A DNA stretch of 12,762 nt, taken from Promethearchaeota archaeon. GTDB taxonomy: Archaea > Asgardarchaeota > Lokiarchaeia > Sigynarchaeales > MK-D1. The stretch is taken from contig JAEOTN010000321.1 of NCBI GenBank assembly GCA_016839865.1, positions 1-12,762 on the forward strand. The letters are read 5' to 3'. Under the pieces are notes generated by a model. It had not been told where the DNA came from and did not search any database. It saw only the letters and a list, made by a program, of their open reading frames with translations. Shown piece by piece: positions 431 to 9,493 of the stretch (position 1 is the stretch's first letter; every line of letters begins with the position of its first letter). The translations under genes were made by a program, and so were the position numbers.

Positions 431-769
431 TCATTTTTCTTTTTTTGAATCAAACCGATGTTTATCCCGCTTTTGATATTTTTTCATAGATTGAGCAATT
501 GCATCATCCAATGAGATGTTGTAAGAATTTGCTATGCAAGTAATAGCAAAGAGTAAATCTCCCAATTCAGTGTCAATGGAGTTCACGGTTTCATCCGATT
601 TTTTCTTCTTAATTGACGTTAGATGCATGATCTCCCTAGATAACTCTCCTAACTCCTCCATTACTGCTGCTAACATCCCTAACGGGGACCAATACCCCCC
701 ATTTTGTTGGATCCAATCATCCACTGCTGTTTGAATTTCTTCAAGCGTTCGTGTCATTATTATTACCAT
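431..769 (-). CDS. MazG-like nucleotide pyrophosphohydrolase
   Basis: A protein of 112 residues, all-alpha, of the MazG/dUTPase-like superfamily. These enzymes hydrolyse (d)NTPs to NMP and pyrophosphate with Mg2+ and clean the nucleotide pool. The metal-binding signature EExxE...ExxD is present: E38, E39 and E42 in VMEELGELSREI, then E68 and D71 in TELGDLLFAI, with the usual spacing of about 25 residues. The length fits a single-domain MazG-like protein rather than the two-domain E. coli MazG. A second ATG at 755-757 (M5, MTRTLEEI) is an equally good start, and neither has a clear ribosome binding site. The gene begins only 10 bases after the NrdD-like stop codon, so the two are probably co-transcribed. 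Its natural substrate is unknown. Confidence 0.85.
   Translation of the reverse strand: MVIIMTRTLEEIQTAVDDWIQQNGGYWSPLGMLAAVMEELGELSREIMHLTSIKKKKSDETVNSIDTELGDLLFAITCIANSYNISLDDAIAQSMKKYQKRDKHRFDSKKEK
434..446 (+). terminator. T-rich termination tract after the kinase gene
   Basis: Two T runs (five and seven) separated by one C lie 5-17 bases after the kinase stop codon. Archaeal RNA polymerase terminates at such U tracts without needing a hairpin. The same bases encode the lysine-rich C-terminus of the convergent MazG-like gene, so the site is embedded in coding sequence. Inferred from base composition only. Confidence 0.45.
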
Positions 770-779
770 CTATTAGTTG

Positions 780-2858
780 TTATAGTGTAAGGCGTTTTCG
801 CTCCTCATATTCTTGTTTCTTTCCAGGATTCCATAGTTCCAAAGGTGCATAATAATTTGTAATCTTAGAGATACGCTTAATTATATGGTCTTTTGGTTCG
901 ACTGGTGGATTTTTATTGAAGTATCCACATTTTGGACAAGAATAGAAATCAAAATTATACGTAAAGGTGTTTGCACCTTGATCAAGCAAGGATAATGTTT
1001 GAGATTTTAAAACATCGATTTTCTCATTTTGGGGTGAATTTGTTAACCAAATTGGCAAGGCTGTATTATTCTGGATAATTTTTGAAGTTTGTGCATGTAT
1101 TTCGGCTCTCTTCAATAACGGAATCTCTCGAGCGTAAGTTCCGTGAGCCGAAGGTGTGTAGTAAACTGCTTCAGTATCTAAGTTACCATTAATAATTGGT
1201 TTTGAATGACTTGGGTAATGAGTTAGGTCTAACAAAGCAAATCGATGAGTAGCAAATTCTGCGGGTTCTTCCCAAACTGTAAAGAACTTGTTGTAAGTTG
1301 TTGTATATTGCTGAGCTCGCTCCTTGAGAAATTGTAAAACTTTCATACCAAACTCCATTGAACTGTTATCTTCGTGGAGATGGGAATTTGTATGCTTTTT
1401 CACCATTTCATCTAAACCTACATACCCGAAGAGTAATGCTTGTCTATCTAAATCTAAAAGTAACTGGCTATCAATTGGTTCATTTAGCAAAGGAAGACGA
1501 TCATTTTTGAGGAGGGTTTCGATGATCTTGTGTTTAACTAATAAGATTTCACGAGATAAATCCATTCGTTCTCCAAGTAATTCTAATGCTTTATCGTCGT
1601 CTCCGTTTGCCTCATAAGCAATTCTTGGAAGATTAATGGATATACTTTGTAATCCACCTAAATTCACATAATTCTTACCCCAATTAAATAAATCAGGTTT
1701 TTCGATGTTATGCAAATATTCAGTTTTATTATCATTTGAAAAAATGGATCCAAGAAATCCTTCCTTGAGCCAAGTATTTTCACTGTTAATGAATACCGGA
1801 GTACCCATTGAGGCTGTTTCAGTAAACAAATTGAACGAAATATCTCGATTCTTTAAATCTTTGGGAGAAATCAGAACTTTATGCTTTGGAAATGCAAATA
1901 ATCGATTACGAGCATCACCTTGAGTGAACACTTTTGATAAAGCATTAAAGAAAAACAAGTTCTCTTTTTCATAATCCTTGTATTTCCCTTGAATATCTCC
2001 TCTTGGACCGACGGCTTCTACATTTTTTAATGATTCAGGAACATGGGGACTACAAATAATCGATGAAATTGGTACGTAAGAACCACGTGAGAGATATTGC
2101 TGATTCAATTCAAACAAAAAGGTTTGAGCTAATTGGGTAATTTCTGACAATGAAAGTTTGCTTAAATAAGGAGCAAGAAATGTGTTGAAGTATAAATAGT
2201 TCTGTTCACCAGAAAACTCCGAATTCACAAATGCTAACCATTTACATGCTTGTAAAACTGCGACCATTGCATTTTTTGCTGGTCCAGACATAGTGAAGCT
2301 TAAATATCCGGTGGGAGGAATACCATATTTTAGTATCATTCTTAAATCCCATGATTGGGAAAAAGGCCTCATGTCAAAATAACGCAATGAATGGATATGG
2401 ATATCTCCAGATAGATGACCACGTGCTTGCTCATTAGAAAGTAATTTTAATAGTGCATATTCCGATGCAATTTGTCCTGCAGCCCACCTATGAATATTCT
2501 CTGGGGCATTATATTCTACTGAACGGGGATTATACGTCGATTGTAGGAGAATTTCGTAGTCAGCAATTGGCATACCAATACGTGTATATTTTTTTCGTGC
2601 GGATTCATAGTGTAACTCGCTTAATGCTGAACACACTAGTTCTCGGATGTGAGGTCCGGATAAGAAACGTATACCAGATGCGATAATACGCCTAACTACC
2701 AGTTCAGTTACTTTTTTTGCATCAACAGGGGGTAATTCAGCTTCTTTTACAATGGATGCTAGGATGCTTTTTGGATTGAACTTTTGCACATCACCCGTAC
2801 TCATGAATACTTCTGGGAGGAGTTTGTGGACATAATCGGAATTTTCTCTATCTGACAT
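780..2858 (-). CDS. NrdD-like anaerobic ribonucleotide reductase homologue lacking the radical residues (probable pseudoenzyme)
   Basis: A protein of 692 residues, full length for archaeal class III ribonucleoside-triphosphate reductase, which makes dNTPs with a glycyl radical. An N-terminal ATP-cone (about 15-95) senses ATP/dATP. The barrel follows, with GDIHIHSLRYF (151-161), MSGPAKNAMVA (190-200), EAVGPRGDIQGKYKDYE (281-297), SISINLPRIAYEA (405-417) and the C-terminal end ELWNPGKKQEYEERKR (674-689). The chemistry-bearing residues are missing. N668 (codon 855-857) sits in ITNYYAPLELWN where active enzymes read TGYYRP. S167 replaces the Cys of the usual RPFCQxWDL. No Cys lies between 269 and 641, the span that should hold the thiyl-radical Cys. 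CPKCGY (641-646) is intact, but the second CxxC that completes the zinc site is gone. No nrdG activase gene is nearby. The fold assignment is firm. Lack of activity is inferred from alignment by eye. Confidence 0.88.
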   Translation of the reverse strand: MSDRENSDYVHKLLPEVFMSTGDVQKFNPKSILASIVKEAELPPVDAKKVTELVVRRIIASGIRFLSGPHIRELVCSALSELHYESARKKYTRIGMPIADYEILLQSTYNPRSVEYNAPENIHRWAAGQIASEYALLKLLSNEQARGHLSGDIHIHSLRYFDMRPFSQSWDLRMILKYGIPPTGYLSFTMSGPAKNAMVAVLQACKWLAFVNSEFSGEQNYLYFNTFLAPYLSKLSLSEITQLAQTFLFELNQQYLSRGSYVPISSIICSPHVPESLKNVEAVGPRGDIQGKYKDYEKENLFFFNALSKVFTQGDARNRLFAFPKHKVLISPKDLKNRDISFNLFTETASMGTPVFINSENTWLKEGFLGSIFSNDNKTEYLHNIEKPDLFNWGKNYVNLGGLQSISINLPRIAYEANGDDDKALELLGERMDLSREILLVKHKIIETLLKNDRLPLLNEPIDSQLLLDLDRQALLFGYVGLDEMVKKHTNSHLHEDNSSMEFGMKVLQFLKERAQQYTTTYNKFFTVWEEPAEFATHRFALLDLTHYPSHSKPIINGNLDTEAVYYTPSAHGTYAREIPLLKRAEIHAQTSKIIQNNTALPIWLTNSPQNEKIDVLKSQTLSLLDQGANTFTYNFDFYSCPKCGYFNKNPPVEPKDHIIKRISKITNYYAPLELWNPGKKQEYEERKRLTL

Positions 2859-4384: not shown

Positions 4385-4732
4385 TTATAGTTCGTATAAT
4401 GAAAGAACTGCCATTACAAATACGACTATACAACCTACCATTGCTAAGGAAATGAAATAGCTTATAAACAATTTAGGCTTTCGATCCGGATTCGTCTGTA
4501 TTTGATAACTCAAACCAAAGCTCAATCCAGCCCCAATTATTGCCACGAGACCAATTGCTAGTGTTTTGTTTGAAAGTGCTTGTAATAGTTTTCCGGTGGA
4601 TGCAAGACTGTTAATTACCACATAGAGTAAATCTACAATTAGTACTCCTATAAAAAACCAGGATTGGAATTGTATGATTTTTATGAATCGATCAGATTCT
4701 TTTTCTACGGGTTTTGGGCTTTTTGTTGCCAT
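4385..4732 (-). CDS. Small three-helix membrane protein of unknown function
   Basis: A protein of 115 residues that I do not recognise. A charged cytosolic-looking N-terminus (1-20, rich in Lys, Glu and Asp) is followed by three hydrophobic segments at about 24-43, 57-77 and 88-112. The loop between segments two and three (QTNPDRKPK, 78-86) is basic. There are no cysteine pairs, active-site motifs or signal peptide cleavage site. Its ATG lies 13 bases after the NAC stop codon and is preceded by AAGGAACC, a reasonable ribosome binding site, so it is probably translated from the NAC transcript. The hisS start follows 29 bases later. Its place between NAC and HisRS suggests a housekeeping membrane role, perhaps linked to protein export, but that is guesswork from position. 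Confidence 0.75.
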   Translation of the reverse strand: MATKSPKPVEKESDRFIKIIQFQSWFFIGVLIVDLLYVVINSLASTGKLLQALSNKTLAIGLVAIIGAGLSFGLSYQIQTNPDRKPKLFISYFISLAMVGCIVVFVMAVLSLYEL

Positions 4733-4745
4733 GGTGGTTCCTTTT

Positions 4746-5240
4746 TTATTGTGATTTTAAATACAGAATCGCACGAGCAAGGTCTCCGTCAGATTCCTTG
4801 AGTGCATTTTCAGCTTCTTCTTCTGTAACTCCGGCTTGAGTAGCGACAATTGCAATATCTTCCGTACGAATTCCTCCAACACTAGACATGTCTTCTTCAA
4901 TTTCTTCCTCGTATTCTTCTATTTCTCCGGATTCGTCGTATTCAGCATATTCTCCATCATATGAGGACAACTCATGTTCTACAGGGTCTCCTAATACTTG
5001 ATGTACAGTCATCCCTTGTTGTATAAGTTGCATTACTTGAGGATTTTCAATTACAATTTCTTTATCAGGGCATTGGATAATAACCCTGGTTGCATTGATT
5101 TCATTCATGTTTTCGATTCCCTGCTTCTGAAGCTGACGTCGCATCGCACGAGAACCTGCTGCAGCAGATTTTGTTGAGGGTTTTACCTTCTGCATTTTTT
5201 CCTTTTTCTTTTCCAGTAAGGCTTTAGGTAATTTTGGCAT
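4746..5240 (-). CDS. nac: Nascent polypeptide-associated complex protein (archaeal alpha-NAC)
   Basis: Archaeal NAC is a homodimer that binds the ribosome near the exit tunnel and contacts emerging chains. The 164 residues divide into a basic tail (1-30, nine lysines), the NAC beta-barrel (about 30-88, with GSRAMRRQLQKQGI, RVIIQCPDKEIVIENPQV and MTVHQVLGDP), a strongly acidic linker (about 88-118, dominated by Glu, Asp and Tyr), and a UBA domain (124-163, IRTEDIAIVATQAGVTEEEA and DGDLARAILYL). Archaeal NACs are usually about 110-120 residues, so both the tail and the linker are longer than common. The basic tail may be the ribosome contact, as lysine/arginine-rich tails are in eukaryotic NAC. 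The gene has its own likely TATA box and is followed at 13 bases by the membrane-protein gene. Confidence 0.95.
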   Translation of the reverse strand: MPKLPKALLEKKKEKMQKVKPSTKSAAAGSRAMRRQLQKQGIENMNEINATRVIIQCPDKEIVIENPQVMQLIQQGMTVHQVLGDPVEHELSSYDGEYAEYDESGEIEEYEEEIEEDMSSVGGIRTEDIAIVATQAGVTEEEAENALKESDGDLARAILYLKSQ

Positions 5241-5283
5241 GAATGATCAGTTCGATATATTTCTCAGCGTAGTGTATGCAAAG

Positions 5284-5295
5284 AAAATATAAAGT
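5284..5295 (-). promoter_or_regulatory. TATA box for nac
   Basis: On the minus strand the sequence is ACTTTATATTTT, a good archaeal TATA element. It lies in the 78-base gap between the PUA gene and nac. Transcription would start about 24 bases before the nac ATG. This suggests nac, the membrane protein and hisS can be transcribed separately from the genes upstream. Confidence 0.5.
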
Positions 5296-5318
5296 CCCAT
5301 TAAATTGTTTTGGTAGAT

Positions 5319-5834
5319 TTATCTGATCTTTGGGATTCCTTTACGTACCGCTACTGCCATACCAATAGACAAACCCGCATATGAAGGAGGAATGTTAAGT
5401 TTTCCTACAGCAAGAAGTTCATCTTGTTCATTTACAACCAATACCTCAGAACCAATACGTAGATCTGGATGAATTTCCACGACGTGTTGGGAAAATACGG
5501 ATTTACCTTGCCGAATAAACTCTTCGACTTCGGATAATATTATAACTCGATGGTTAGGAGAGGAAATATGTGAATGAAGTAGTTGACCACCAAGGATGGA
5601 AAGAGTAAACATGCCCGTGGTTGGTTTATAAGATAGTACCCGTTCTTCATTTAGATAAATATATTTTATATTTCCTGTATTACGTGAAAATTCAATTTTA
5701 ATGTTCTCTGCAGTCAGAAACTCCTCGAAGACATCTGTTTCAAATTGAAATCTAAGAATTGAATAGATTTTTTCCAGTATTCGGGATTTCGATTTATTGA
5801 TGTCCAAGTTAAGGCGATTTTTAGGAAGAGGCAT
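5319..5834 (-). CDS. TGT-C2/PUA domain RNA-binding protein
   Basis: A protein of 171 residues matching the C-terminal part of archaeal archaeosine tRNA-guanine transglycosylase but standing alone. A C2-like domain occupies about 20-92 (YLNEERVLSYKPTTGMFTLS, 60-79) and a PUA domain about 95-168. The PUA stretch reads DLRIGSEVLVVNEQDELLAV (124-143), followed by GKLNIPP and GMAVAVRKG (158-166). PUA domains bind structured RNA, often tRNA acceptor arms. No catalytic TGT residues are present, so it is an RNA-binding accessory, not a transglycosylase. Such a PUA gene beside nac is, from memory, a recurring archaeal arrangement. It starts at ATG 5834 behind GGAATATAA and lies 11 bases after the cupin stop codon, so it is probably co-transcribed with it. 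The RNA target is unknown. Confidence 0.82.
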   Translation of the reverse strand: MPLPKNRLNLDINKSKSRILEKIYSILRFQFETDVFEEFLTAENIKIEFSRNTGNIKYIYLNEERVLSYKPTTGMFTLSILGGQLLHSHISSPNHRVIILSEVEEFIRQGKSVFSQHVVEIHPDLRIGSEVLVVNEQDELLAVGKLNIPPSYAGLSIGMAVAVRKGIPKIR

Positions 5835-5845
5835 TTATATTCCAT

Positions 5846-6205
5846 TCATTTTTTTGGTTCATATTCGGGTCGATATGGATAAAACACTTCAATTAATTGA
5901 GTATCTTCTAAAACTTCCGCACCATGCTTCTCTTCAGCTTCAAATATATAACTATCTCCAGGAGTTGCGATAAATTCATTTTCTGGTTGTTCTGATAAGA
6001 AGTGAATTTTCCCCGAGAGGATGTACCCAATTTGCACATTAGGATGGTTATGCAAAGGAATTTTTGCGTCTTTTTCCAATCGGAAGATGCATAGCATGGT
6101 TTGTTCATTATATGCAAGAGTTTGCCTAAAAACACCAGGTAAGGCTTTAAAAGGAGATATATCTTTAAGATTTACGGGATTGTGCGTTTTTATTTTTTCA
6201 TCCAT
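5846..6205 (-). CDS. Single-domain cupin protein
   Basis: A small cupin of 119 residues forming one beta-barrel. Motif 1 is PLHNHPNVQIGYILSGKIHF (50-69), with metal ligands H52 and H54. The usual glutamate ligand is replaced by Q58. Motif 2 is PGDSYIFEAEEKHGAEV (82-98), with H94 as the third histidine. A three-His or three-His/Gln metal site is therefore plausible. Stand-alone cupins include dioxygenases, isomerases, dimethylsulfoniopropionate lyases and ligand sensors, and the sequence does not tell which. The gene lies 32 bases after the pan stop codon and 11 bases before the PUA gene. A T-rich minus-strand stretch at 6226-6236 could be the pan terminator, a TATA element for a nearly leaderless cupin transcript, or both. 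Confidence 0.8.
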   Translation of the reverse strand: MDEKIKTHNPVNLKDISPFKALPGVFRQTLAYNEQTMLCIFRLEKDAKIPLHNHPNVQIGYILSGKIHFLSEQPENEFIATPGDSYIFEAEEKHGAEVLEDTQLIEVFYPYRPEYEPKK

Positions 6206-6225
6206 ACAATGTGTTAACCGTGGAT

Positions 6226-6236
6226 ATAAAAAAAGA
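6226..6236 (-). terminator. U-tract between pan and the cupin gene
   Basis: The minus strand reads CTTTTTTTATA directly after the pan stop codon. A run of seven T is a typical archaeal termination signal. The same bases resemble a TATA box placed about 25 bases before the cupin ATG, so the two readings compete. Confidence 0.35.
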
Positions 6237-6237
6237 A

Positions 6238-7446
6238 TTAGGAATACAAATTCCGAGGAACTTTTTTCTTGGAAAGAACTTTTTCCAATGCTTGTTCAAA
6301 ATCACTCTGTGAAATTATTTTCTTCTTCTCACGAATTGCAATCATTCCAGCTTCGATACAAATCGCGTTTATCTCAGCACCTGTGGCATTATCGGTTTTT
6401 TGCACAAGGAACTTAAAATTTACATCTTTATCTAATTTCAAGTTTTTTGAATGAATCTTAAAGATCTGAAGACGGTCTTCTTCAAGAGGAATCGGGAATT
6501 TTATAATTCGGTCGAATCGTCCCGGTCGTAATAATGCAGGATCCAAAATGTCAAAGCGATTTGTCGCTGCGATAATTCTTACATCTCCACGATCATCAAA
6601 TCCATCTAATTCTGAAAGCAATTGCATAAGAGTTCGTTGTACTTCACGGTCTCCCGAAGTCGCTACTTGTAATCTTTGGCTCCCAATTGCATCTAATTCA
6701 TCAATAAAGATTATTGAGGGTGATTTTTTCCTGGCTAGTTGGAATATCTCTCTTACTAATCGAGCTCCTTCCCCAATGAATTTTTGAACTAGCTCAGAAC
6801 CGATGATACGAATAAACCGTGCTTTAGTTGCATTAGCTACAGCTTTGGCAGTAAGAGTTTTTCCAGTTCCGGGTTCACCATATAATAATACTCCTTTGGG
6901 AGGTTTTACACCGACGCTTTCAAATAGCTCCGGATATAGTAAGGGAAGCTCGACAGTCTCCTTGACTTCTTGGAGCTGTTCTTCTAATCCACCAATATCA
7001 TCATAAGTTATTTCTGGGATTTGGTCCGCTAACTCCATACCCTGCACAAGAGGGTCAGTACTTTCGGGCATTACTTCCATAACTGCAAAATTCCGTTGAT
7101 TAAGTGCTACCCGCATTCCAGGTTCCATATCTTTGGTTCCAATCTTCCGGGATACATTTACAACAAATAATGGTCCTGTTGAACTCTTCACAACTACACG
7201 ATTATCCTCTAGTATGTCGGTAATGGTTGCTCCAATTAAAGGAGGTTGCCTTAATCGATCTAGTTCATTACGTAAGGTGTGTAATTCTTTATCTAACCGT
7301 AATCGCTCAGTTTCGAGGAGTTGTTTTTCTGTTTCTAAAGATCGTAATCTGCGCTCTAAATGTCGAGTATATGTGATCAAGTAATTATCGTTCGCTCGTT
7401 TCTCCTCATCCTCAGGTTCGTCACGGTTTTTCTTTAAAGTACTCAT
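6238..7446 (-). CDS. pan: Proteasome-activating nucleotidase (PAN)
   Basis: A hexameric AAA+ ATPase that unfolds proteins and feeds them into the 20S proteasome, 402 residues, normal for the family. An N-terminal coiled coil (about 25-66) is followed by an OB domain (about 68-128). The AAA+ module carries Walker A GEPGTGKT (190-197), the aromatic-hydrophobic-Gly pore loop F223-I224-G225, Walker B IIFIDE (245-250), sensor-1 N296 in AATNR, and arginine fingers R307 and R310 in RPGRFDR. The last three residues, Leu-Tyr-Ser, form an HbYX motif, which docks between 20S alpha subunits and opens the gate, so it should be functional. It is the first gene of the minus-strand train and is divergent from aMBF1. 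No proteasome subunit gene lies in the window. Confidence 0.96.
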   Translation of the reverse strand: MSTLKKNRDEPEDEEKRANDNYLITYTRHLERRLRSLETEKQLLETERLRLDKELHTLRNELDRLRQPPLIGATITDILEDNRVVVKSSTGPLFVVNVSRKIGTKDMEPGMRVALNQRNFAVMEVMPESTDPLVQGMELADQIPEITYDDIGGLEEQLQEVKETVELPLLYPELFESVGVKPPKGVLLYGEPGTGKTLTAKAVANATKARFIRIIGSELVQKFIGEGARLVREIFQLARKKSPSIIFIDELDAIGSQRLQVATSGDREVQRTLMQLLSELDGFDDRGDVRIIAATNRFDILDPALLRPGRFDRIIKFPIPLEEDRLQIFKIHSKNLKLDKDVNFKFLVQKTDNATGAEINAICIEAGMIAIREKKKIISQSDFEQALEKVLSKKKVPRNLYS

Positions 7447-7725: not shown

Positions 7726-8286
7726 ATGCCTTATACTTGTGAATTATGCGGTGAACCCACCGATCAAAAGATTATGCGAACAATTGAGGGTGTAAAAATG
7801 CTCGTGTGTCGTAATTGCATGATGATGGGAGAGAAACCCAAGTCTGAAATACGACCATCACAGGTACAGAAAAAACCCCCCCAATATTATCTAGATAAAC
7901 CACAATATACACCACGACCTAAGACAACGCAATCGCCACCCCAAAGAAGTAAACCCACTTTAAAAAAGCCAAAAAATGCACCAATTGATAGACTTAAATT
8001 GGTAGAAAATTATCGAAATGTCTTGAAAAAAATACGTAGAGACAATGATATGGATCAGGGAGAATTTTCCAATTCAGTTGGAATTACTCATACAAGTTAT
8101 CGACATATAGAATCAGGTAAATTAGAACTGACCATTCAAGAAGCAAGACGCATCGAGAAAAAATATGAAGTGGAGCTAACGGAATTCGTTTCAGATTACG
8201 AAGAAGACGTATATGATCAGTATCTGCACCAAGAGAAATCCTCTGGTTCGACCCTCGGAGATGTTTACCTTAAAAAGAAAAAATAA
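7726..8286 (+). CDS. Archaeal multiprotein bridging factor 1 (aMBF1)
   Basis: A protein of 186 residues with an N-terminal zinc ribbon (C5, C8, C28 and C31 as two CxxC pairs), a long Pro/Lys-rich disordered linker (about 36-88), and a Cro-type helix-turn-helix (about 93-155, with RDNDMDQGEFSNSVGITHTS and HIESGKLELTIQEARRIEKK). It ends in TLGDVYLKKKK, typical of archaeal MBF1. In eukaryotes MBF1/EDF1 was first described as a transcription coactivator and later as a factor on collided ribosomes. From memory, aMBF1 associates with the small ribosomal subunit. The linker is longer than in many family members. The gene's last 26 bases overlap the preferred hflX start, which couples the two. Confidence 0.93.
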   Translation: MPYTCELCGEPTDQKIMRTIEGVKMLVCRNCMMMGEKPKSEIRPSQVQKKPPQYYLDKPQYTPRPKTTQSPPQRSKPTLKKPKNAPIDRLKLVENYRNVLKKIRRDNDMDQGEFSNSVGITHTSYRHIESGKLELTIQEARRIEKKYEVELTEFVSDYEEDVYDQYLHQEKSSGSTLGDVYLKKKK

Positions 8287-9493
8287 AATTGCAATTGTGA
8301 TTCAAGGTATCCACAAGTCTATACCAGCTTACGATAAGGACGAATTCGAGGGACTAGCAAAGGCTGCTGGATATACAATTATCCATTTTTACTCTCAGAA
8401 CTTAAAGAAAATAAACTCAAAATATCTTCTTGGTACTGGCAAACTCAAAGAAATTGCGGATAATCAAATCACTGATCTTTCAAACTATATCGATAGTTTC
8501 GCCACAAAAATCGAAAAACGTCGAGAAGAAGATCTCGTTTACTTGTTTATGAATCGTTTAAAGCCCAACCATATACGAAACATCTCTGGTGCTCTACGAA
8601 CTAAAGTAATTGACAGAGATTTACTAATTTTAGAGATATTTGAAGCTCATGCAAATACCCGTGAGTCAAAAATCCAAATAAAACTCGCACGTATGTACCT
8701 CGAAGCCTCCCGAAAGCAAAAGGAGGTATCAGCAAAGCTAGTTACGGAAAGACAAGGAAGAGATTTCATGGGGAAAGGATTTGGTGCGTTTGAAGCCTAT
8801 AAAAGATCAATTCGAGAACAACGAAAAAACCTATTAATTGAGTTGGACACGATCCGAAAACAGCGACATTTGCGCAGAAAGTCACGTAGCGATATGTATG
8901 CAGCATCTATTGTCGGATATACAAACGCTGGAAAAACAACTTTACTTAATACAGCAAAAGGATTGGATCTTGAAACCAAAGACAGTCCATTTACCACTGT
9001 TACTACAACTACACGTAGTATTCAAGTAAATGATGAAAAAATGTTGTTATCTGACACTGTAGGATTTGTGTATGATATACCTCATGAAATCATTGATGCT
9101 TTTCTTTCTACATTAGAAGAAGTTGCGTATGCGAATTGCATTATTTTGACTTTAGATATTTCTGATACAATTGGTAGAATTTTTCAAAAACTTCAGACCA
9201 CCTTTGAAGTGCTGGTTACGATTGGAGCGCTTAATATTCCTATTCTATATTTTTTAAATAAAATTGATAAAATTGAGCCAGATGATTTTGCAGTTAAGCG
9301 AACCCAACTGCTGAAAATATTGCCTGAAAATTCTGTAATCCATTTTGGTTCTGCTCTAGAAAAAGAGACTGTAAAAAAACTTGGTAAAAAACTATATGAT
9401 ATAAGAAAATCTCTCATCTCATCAACCAAAATACTTACTCAAGAAAACTTGATGGACATAGTAGATAAGATAAAGGTCGTTAACAAATCCTAA
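8261..9493 (+). CDS. hflX: HflX-type ribosome-associated GTPase
   Basis: A translational GTPase of 410 residues. HflX binds large ribosomal subunits and in bacteria splits stalled 70S ribosomes. An N-terminal nucleotide-binding-like domain (about 5-130, with SKYLLGTGKLKEIADNQI) leads into a helical linker holding FMGKGFGAFEAYKRSI (169-184), the archaeal variant of the bacterial GPGETQLE segment. The G domain has G1 GYTNAGKTTLLN (219-230), G2 around PFTTVTTTTRS (243-253), G3 DTVGF (265-269), G4 NKID (333-336) and G5 GSA (363-365). The frame is open from 8213, but ATG 8261 puts the conserved KIAIVIQGI near the N-terminus and is chosen. It overlaps aMBF1 by 26 bases. Its stop codon overlaps that of the convergent patatin gene. 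Confidence 0.93.
   Translation: MFTLKRKNKIAIVIQGIHKSIPAYDKDEFEGLAKAAGYTIIHFYSQNLKKINSKYLLGTGKLKEIADNQITDLSNYIDSFATKIEKRREEDLVYLFMNRLKPNHIRNISGALRTKVIDRDLLILEIFEAHANTRESKIQIKLARMYLEASRKQKEVSAKLVTERQGRDFMGKGFGAFEAYKRSIREQRKNLLIELDTIRKQRHLRRKSRSDMYAASIVGYTNAGKTTLLNTAKGLDLETKDSPFTTVTTTTRSIQVNDEKMLLSDTVGFVYDIPHEIIDAFLSTLEEVAYANCIILTLDISDTIGRIFQKLQTTFEVLVTIGALNIPILYFLNKIDKIEPDDFAVKRTQLLKILPENSVIHFGSALEKETVKKLGKKLYDIRKSLISSTKILTQENLMDIVDKIKVVNKS

Follow-up and report, generated by a model that had tools for sequence, protein, structure and literature searches.

A 12,762-nucleotide stretch of a Promethearchaeota archaeon genome (assembly GCA_016839865.1, contig JAEOTN010000321.1; hereafter the window, meaning the whole stretch analysed) carries a full-length homologue of NrdD, the oxygen-sensitive class III ribonucleotide reductase, which supplies precursors for DNA. 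The homologue and its closest relatives, here called type B, have almost certainly lost catalysis. On sequence evidence, type B is a real and conserved pseudoenzyme clade of the class III reductase. We put at roughly one in two the probability that these proteins act as (deoxy)nucleotide-responsive sensors or regulators, a reading in which nucleotide binding, a dimer, a partner and an output are all predicted.

780..2858, minus strand: type B NrdD homologue, 692 amino acids (aa), apparently catalytically dead (from the frame, a Pfam match and alignments).

The 692-codon frame is full length and intact, with zero internal stops, as a preliminary description of this DNA had stated. The Pfam NRDD model covers residues 117-689 of the product (E = 6.8e-92), which places the protein in the NrdD fold and family. 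It scored 296.6 bits with the NCBIfam NrdD equivalog TIGR02487, below the cut-off of 326.35, against which active Lokiarchaeia NrdDs were not scored. No enzyme family other than NrdD was matched in Pfam and NCBIfam scans, and no DNA-binding domain in the Pfam scan.

Residue equivalences come from a profile alignment of Asgard sequences with the NrdD of Prevotella copri, whose radical Gly711, thiyl Cys416, Cys171, NxN flap and loop-2 Gln309 are given in an excerpt of PMC11226230. The alignment (n = 108) comprised 45 active-type Asgard NrdDs (from 30 loci and 15 proteins, with close relatives among them and the intein-bearing P0023 excluded), 16 type B clusters and 3 type B loci, other dead groups and 3 bacterial NrdDs. 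The altered sites in the window protein are as follows.

855..857, minus strand: Asn668 at the site of the radical glycine (P. copri Gly711); profile alignment and counts.
1734..1763, minus strand: site of the thiyl-radical loop, from which the SQCCR of active relatives is gone; profile alignment with P. copri Cys416 and counts.
2358..2360, minus strand: Ser167 in place of the second active-site cysteine (P. copri Cys171), on the first strand; profile alignment and counts.
2514..2525, minus strand: former NxN substrate flap, residues 112-115; both Asn changed in 16/16 clusters.
1065..1070, minus strand: Asn597-Asn598 where active relatives have Gly-Gly; fixed across the type B clade.

Both cysteine sites and the glycine were altered together in 16/16 type B clusters versus 0/45 active-type relatives. 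The radical-glycine column holds glycine in all 45 active-type sequences, and aspartate (8), asparagine (7) or lysine (1) in the 16 clusters; codon 668 of the window gene reads AAT. The CCR motif with the thiyl cysteine was present in 45/45 active-type and 3/3 bacterial sequences and in 0/16 type B clusters, which have lost two of the three motif columns by deletion. At the second active-site position, cysteine in 45/45 active-type sequences gives way to serine (9), alanine (6) or glycine (1), with TCC at codon 167 of the window gene. The flap Asn pair is likewise retained in 45/45 and 0/16, respectively, and the loop-2 glutamine (45/45), a substrate contact, is replaced by histidine in nine clusters and tyrosine in seven (Tyr261 in the window protein). 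The only cysteines of the window protein are residues 76, 205, 269, 641 and 644, with none within 270-640 and a single CxxC pair. The preliminary description had named Asn668, Ser167, the cysteine-free span between 269 and 641 and the single remaining zinc CxxC pair, and each of these was borne out. In one type B member, P0015, a cysteine lies two residues past the serine of the second-cysteine site.

A cysteine or glycine shifted by misalignment was considered and rejected: Cys76 and Cys269 also occur at non-catalytic sites of active relatives, Cys205 falls at no catalytic position, and CCR is lost in 16/16 clusters. A conserved Cys and Gly elsewhere in the protein, the outcome that the preliminary description had set against its own claim, did not appear, as none of the 16 clusters has either cysteine or the glycine at the aligned positions. 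Active-type NrdDs share 280 fixed positions (in at least 97% of the 45), of which type B keeps 145 (in at least 90% of sequences) and loses 67 (kept in at most 10%). For the subset also shared with 3/3 bacteria, 64 are kept and 17 lost. Among these 17 are the flap residue Asn114, the two cysteine sites, loop 2 and a strand patterned H-G-I-H-G. The radical glycine is absent from this set, since two of the bacterial frames stop before reaching it. The bacterial NrdD frames L003:1440-3602 and L005:1087-3132 end short of the radical glycine, and the next frame in L005 is a weak NrdD match.

The same changes recur across a clade. Of 774 matches from a protein search over 7,995 scored candidates, the best 120 were examined. 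The first 16 clusters among these, the window's own included (47-100% identity), share the catalytic losses and form one clade, the outcome of the homologue search that the preliminary description had proposed; more distant members could lie beyond the best 120. Taxon-named records among the matches were Lokiarchaeota, Promethearchaeota or archaeon metagenome-assembled genomes. The clade was fully supported in a quick tree and in a careful tree, the latter with 12 of its 16 members. A single origin of all dead NrdDs (type B, plus the type C proteins and the pair from genomes G023 and G024 described below) was rejected (approximately unbiased test, p-AU 3.96e-5; tree with 12/16 type B and 10/16 type C loci). 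Type C and the G023/G024 pair cluster weakly (support 92/77), so that two or three origins are both possible. A further degenerate group, type D, was too divergent and was excluded from both trees.

Selection maintains the type B sequence. Ratios of nonsynonymous to synonymous substitution rates (dN/dS) were 0.036 between the window and L001, 0.076 between the window and L002, and 0.060 between L001 and L002, values that are rough because dS exceeded 2, near saturation, in all three pairs; the three pairs with L061 yielded no value. These ratios lie far below 1 and agree with the earlier proposal that selection preserves the intact frame. A pseudogene was ruled out by the full-length frames and low dN/dS. 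Protein identity of the window's dead NrdD was 86% to L001 and 75% to L002, and the corresponding values for neighbouring products were 80% and 77% (HisS) and 71% and 61% (MazG).

Several elements of the NrdD frame that lie outside the catalytic residues persist.

2535..2819, minus strand: ATP-cone region, residues 14-108; the slowest-diverging part of the clade, with the basic residue at position 31 mostly gone.
2067..2150, minus strand: effector-site helix, kept (Q242, Q245, E250), with an altered loop 2 (Tyr261); alignment counts.
783..968, minus strand: glycyl-radical-like C-terminal region, residues 631-692, with one CxxC pair; by alignment, and kept in the model fold.

At 40-65% core identity, the ratio of cone to core divergence was 0.50 in type B versus 0.81 in active-type NrdDs (102 pairs each) and 0.37 in type C (112 pairs), the pairs not being independent. 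The cone's basic residues R72, R88, K89 and R93 are kept in 16/16 type B clusters. In the window protein this region is aligned and conserved, with low model confidence in parts. The claim in the preliminary description that the ATP-cone is kept stands with one qualification: it is the best-conserved region, but the position-31 basic residue is mostly lost and the Pfam ATP-cone model did not match the window protein at E <= 0.001. Effector-helix residues are retained in 15/16 (Q242), 15/16 (Q245) and 16/16 (E250) clusters. The effector-site mapping is approximate and rests on Asn298 and loop 2, because P. copri Glu290 aligned with no Glu. Both zinc CxxC pairs are gone in type B members L001:8001-10079 and P0003.

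The type B protein was found in 3 of the 83 genomes of its class that were inventoried (G001, G002 and G009), and we inventoried reductases and activase in these three carriers, which are sister genomes and not the window's own. No active NrdD was found in them by an NRDD search of 79 genomes of the order. The activase NrdG2 (TIGR02495, E <= 1e-20) was matched in 46/79 genomes, 43 above cut-off, and in 0/3 carriers, the other NrdG family not having been searched. NrdG2 presence tracked NrdD, occurring in 38/53 genomes with a strong NRDD match versus 5/22 without (Fisher p 2e-4); the 53 were set by match score and not by residue check, and four genomes with partial or intermediate hits were left out. 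These absences from the carriers are provisional because genome completeness was not given.

A search for class I/II reductases with PF02867 detected 8/79 genomes of the order (7 above cut-off), and absent hits suggested that the carriers lacked any reductase. This was overturned by TIGR02505, which matched RTPR, the class II, B12-dependent reductase, in 68/79 genomes (59 above cut-off), including G001 and G002; in G009 the gene is partial at a contig end and below cut-off. PF02867 mostly misses RTPR here; in two genomes it weakly hits the gene. The preliminary description had advised looking in the same genome for a true reductase, either an active NrdD with its activase or a class I/II enzyme; in the sister genomes a class II RTPR was found, and neither an active NrdD nor NrdG2. 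With shared losses in 16 clusters, one clade, low dN/dS and three carriers in which neither an active NrdD nor NrdG2 was found, its suggestion of a conserved NrdD pseudoenzyme family holds.

The carriers' RTPR itself has an N-terminal cone-like region. In this cone (L111, L112, L117) the carriers have DVGL versus ETGL in 22/23 other sampled RTPRs, and Lys-Asp versus Arg-Glu or Arg-Asp in 23/23, together with a 3-residue insertion. The three carrier RTPRs form one clade, so the change counts as a single event. As evidence for a sensor in trans it was kept only as an idea, being a single event with a mild Arg-to-Lys change.

The surroundings of the dead gene bear on its origin.

431..769, minus strand: MazG-like nucleotide pyrophosphohydrolase, 10 bases downstream of the dead nrdD; the same neighbour lies beside the active nrdD in G012.
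4385..7446, minus strand: flanking genes for a small conserved protein, NAC, a PUA protein, a cupin-like protein (named by eye) and a proteasomal-type ATPase; these also flank the active nrdD of G012.

The nrdD of G012 carries RPFCQ, SQCCR and VTGYY, and its region matches nine window genes, for a helix-turn-helix (HTH) protein, the proteasomal-type ATPase, PUA, NAC, small (a weak match, 9e-5) and cupin-like proteins, NrdD, MazG and a sugar kinase. Gene order is near-identical, with HisS extra in the window, the cupin-like gene moved and one G012 gene between mazG and the kinase. This shared order implies that the dead gene is an nrdD descendant in place, and not a paralogue elsewhere. The mazG gene also adjoins the dead nrdD in L001 and L002. 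Further along the window, the listed frames of the HTH protein (7726-8286) and HflX (8213-9493) share 74 bases in different reading frames, and the HflX start may be further in.

Taken together, the dead gene descends in place from a working class III reductase gene, in a lineage that probably makes its deoxynucleoside triphosphates (dNTPs) with RTPR and from which active NrdD and its activase seem to have disappeared. NrdD has shed its radical chemistry and substrate handling, and kept the cone region, the barrel, the effector-site helix at the dimer interface and the C-terminal domain. In P. copri NrdD, according to an excerpt of PMC11226230, dATP in the cone loosens the flap and the C-terminal domain, such that substrate is not bound. 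A nucleotide-responsive switch is the most likely reading of type B because the clade keeps the frame of this dATP switch without its chemistry. The protein may thus be a conformational switch driven by a (deoxy)nucleotide and acting on a partner, of which the first candidates would be the MazG pyrophosphohydrolase of the next gene and RTPR.

Several observations weigh against a nucleotide-responsive switch. Cone position 31 is basic in 43/45 active-type relatives and in only 2/16 type B clusters, so nucleotide binding of the kind found in other reductases may be lost from the cone. Newly fixed positions number 12 in type B and 15 in a control split within active-type NrdDs, and the clade thus shows no excess. 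In G009, MazG is not adjacent to the dead nrdD. RTPR would not obviously need a sensor in trans because it has its own cone-like region, and it can do without the type B protein, since G004-G008, of the same order, have RTPR, with neither an active NrdD nor type B found there.

A structural or scaffold protein, in which the fold is kept for protein-protein contact and no nucleotide is sensed, would account for a cone whose sequence is kept while its position-31 basic residue is not, and for the disappearance of one of two zinc CxxC pairs in the window protein and both in P0003. Such a protein would not need Q242, Q245 and E250, kept in 15, 15 and 16 of 16 clusters, and we consider this explanation possible but unlikely. 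Rather improbable is a remodelled barrel that serves as an enzyme with new, non-radical chemistry or as a nucleotide-binding carrier. The clade-specific fixed positions, such as Gly597-Gly598 to Asn-Asn and Gly213 to Ser, would suit it; as proof of a new site they were not supported, since the control split gave more (15 versus 12), and the Pfam and NCBIfam scans pointed to no other enzyme family. That the gene is a decaying relic on its way out is very improbable even though searches of the carriers turned up neither an active NrdD nor NrdG2: the proteins stay full length across 16 clusters that reach down to 47% identity, and dN/dS is 0.036-0.076 for three pairs. Continued ribonucleotide reduction in which a second protein provides the lost residues, for which the known detached glycyl-radical domain of pyruvate formate-lyase offers a precedent, deserves next to no credence, as the losses extend to both cysteines, the thiyl loop and the substrate flap, and no NrdG2 was found in the carriers.

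Other NrdDs of the order have degenerated in different ways. Type C (L045-L060) comprises 600-residue paralogues that lack CCR and have no C-terminal domain at all; they occupy a conserved locus of their own, and an active-type NrdD is present alongside them in 13/16 genomes by match score. The dead NrdDs of G023 and G024 (L043:623-2497 and L042:4228-6102) lie at the nrdD-mazG locus and keep the strand cysteine, with the thiyl motif and C-terminal domain gone; NrdG2 was not found in either genome. Type D (L010:7410-9740, L011:7948-10275, L062-L081) joins a winged helix, an ATP-cone and a degenerate NrdD barrel in a single protein, and looks like a dNTP-sensing transcription factor. A type D profile matched 68/79 genomes of the order at E <= 1e-20, the best match being restricted to the N-terminal half in eight of them (G001-G005, G007, G008 and G077). 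Four members were scanned (L067, L010, L044, L062), with matches above cut-off to DUF7347 in four, NRDD in three, ATP-cone in two and HTH_20 in one, and the best PDB matches of one type D model (predicted local distance difference test score, pLDDT, 80.5) were 34 NrdD chains. The type D gene is directly beside a pyrB-like gene in 20/22 sampled loci and has an S7-like gene in the same stretch in 19/22 (both named by eye). L044:4149-6464 (G077) combines a winged helix-turn-helix (wHTH), a cone, a full-length NrdD match and four zinc-type cysteines with no CCR motif, and is possibly an intermediate towards type D. Inteins or long insertions occur in NrdD and RTPR of several Lokiarchaeia (P0023; open frames of about 1,050-1,690 aa).

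A broader and distinctly speculative proposal is that Lokiarchaeia repeatedly turned the NrdD frame into dNTP-sensing regulators (type B and separately G023/G024 in place, truncated type C, and wHTH-cone-barrel type D), and that the type B lineage moved overall activity control of RTPR from that enzyme's changed cone to a dead NrdD in trans. The type B case shows that strong selection can persist on a radical enzyme at the heart of DNA synthesis after its chemistry is gone, and dead NrdDs have at least two separate origins within one archaeal order. In public records many of them, often type D too, carry the name anaerobic ribonucleoside-triphosphate reductase; if these were tallied as reductases, the picture of Asgard DNA-precursor synthesis would be wrong, and some genomes apparently using class III may in fact depend on the B12-dependent RTPR. 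In search listings from the open-licence literature on ribonucleotide reductases or ATP-cones of Asgard or other archaea, and on reductase pseudoenzymes, we found no description of dead NrdDs or wHTH-NrdD fusions.

Compared with the class III NrdDs of P. copri, Thermotoga maritima, T4 and S. thermophilus, type B differs in being without the radical glycine, the thiyl cysteine loop, the second cysteine and the NxN flap, and in the absence of any NrdG2 match from its three carrier genomes. The R1 homologues of betaherpesviruses belong to class I. Like type B, those of human and murine cytomegalovirus (HCMV UL45 and MCMV M45) have lost most catalytic residues and taken other roles, as described in an excerpt of PMC5469499. 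Type B shares the marks of a dead reductase homologue of this kind, namely a reductase fold, lost catalytic residues and a sequence under selection; the betaherpesvirus proteins, however, are viral homologues of the cellular large subunit R1, whereas type B is class III, cellular and archaeal. NrdR, the repressor of reductase genes, uses an ATP-cone as a sensor outside catalysis (PMC9110341, in excerpt), which resembles the role suggested for type B. It differs in having a zinc ribbon and cone in 140-220 residues and no reductase barrel, type B being without a DNA-binding domain match, and type D is the closer NrdR analogue. RTPR, with its N-terminal cone-like region, occurs in the type B carriers and differs from type B as a separate reductase family encoded at other loci.
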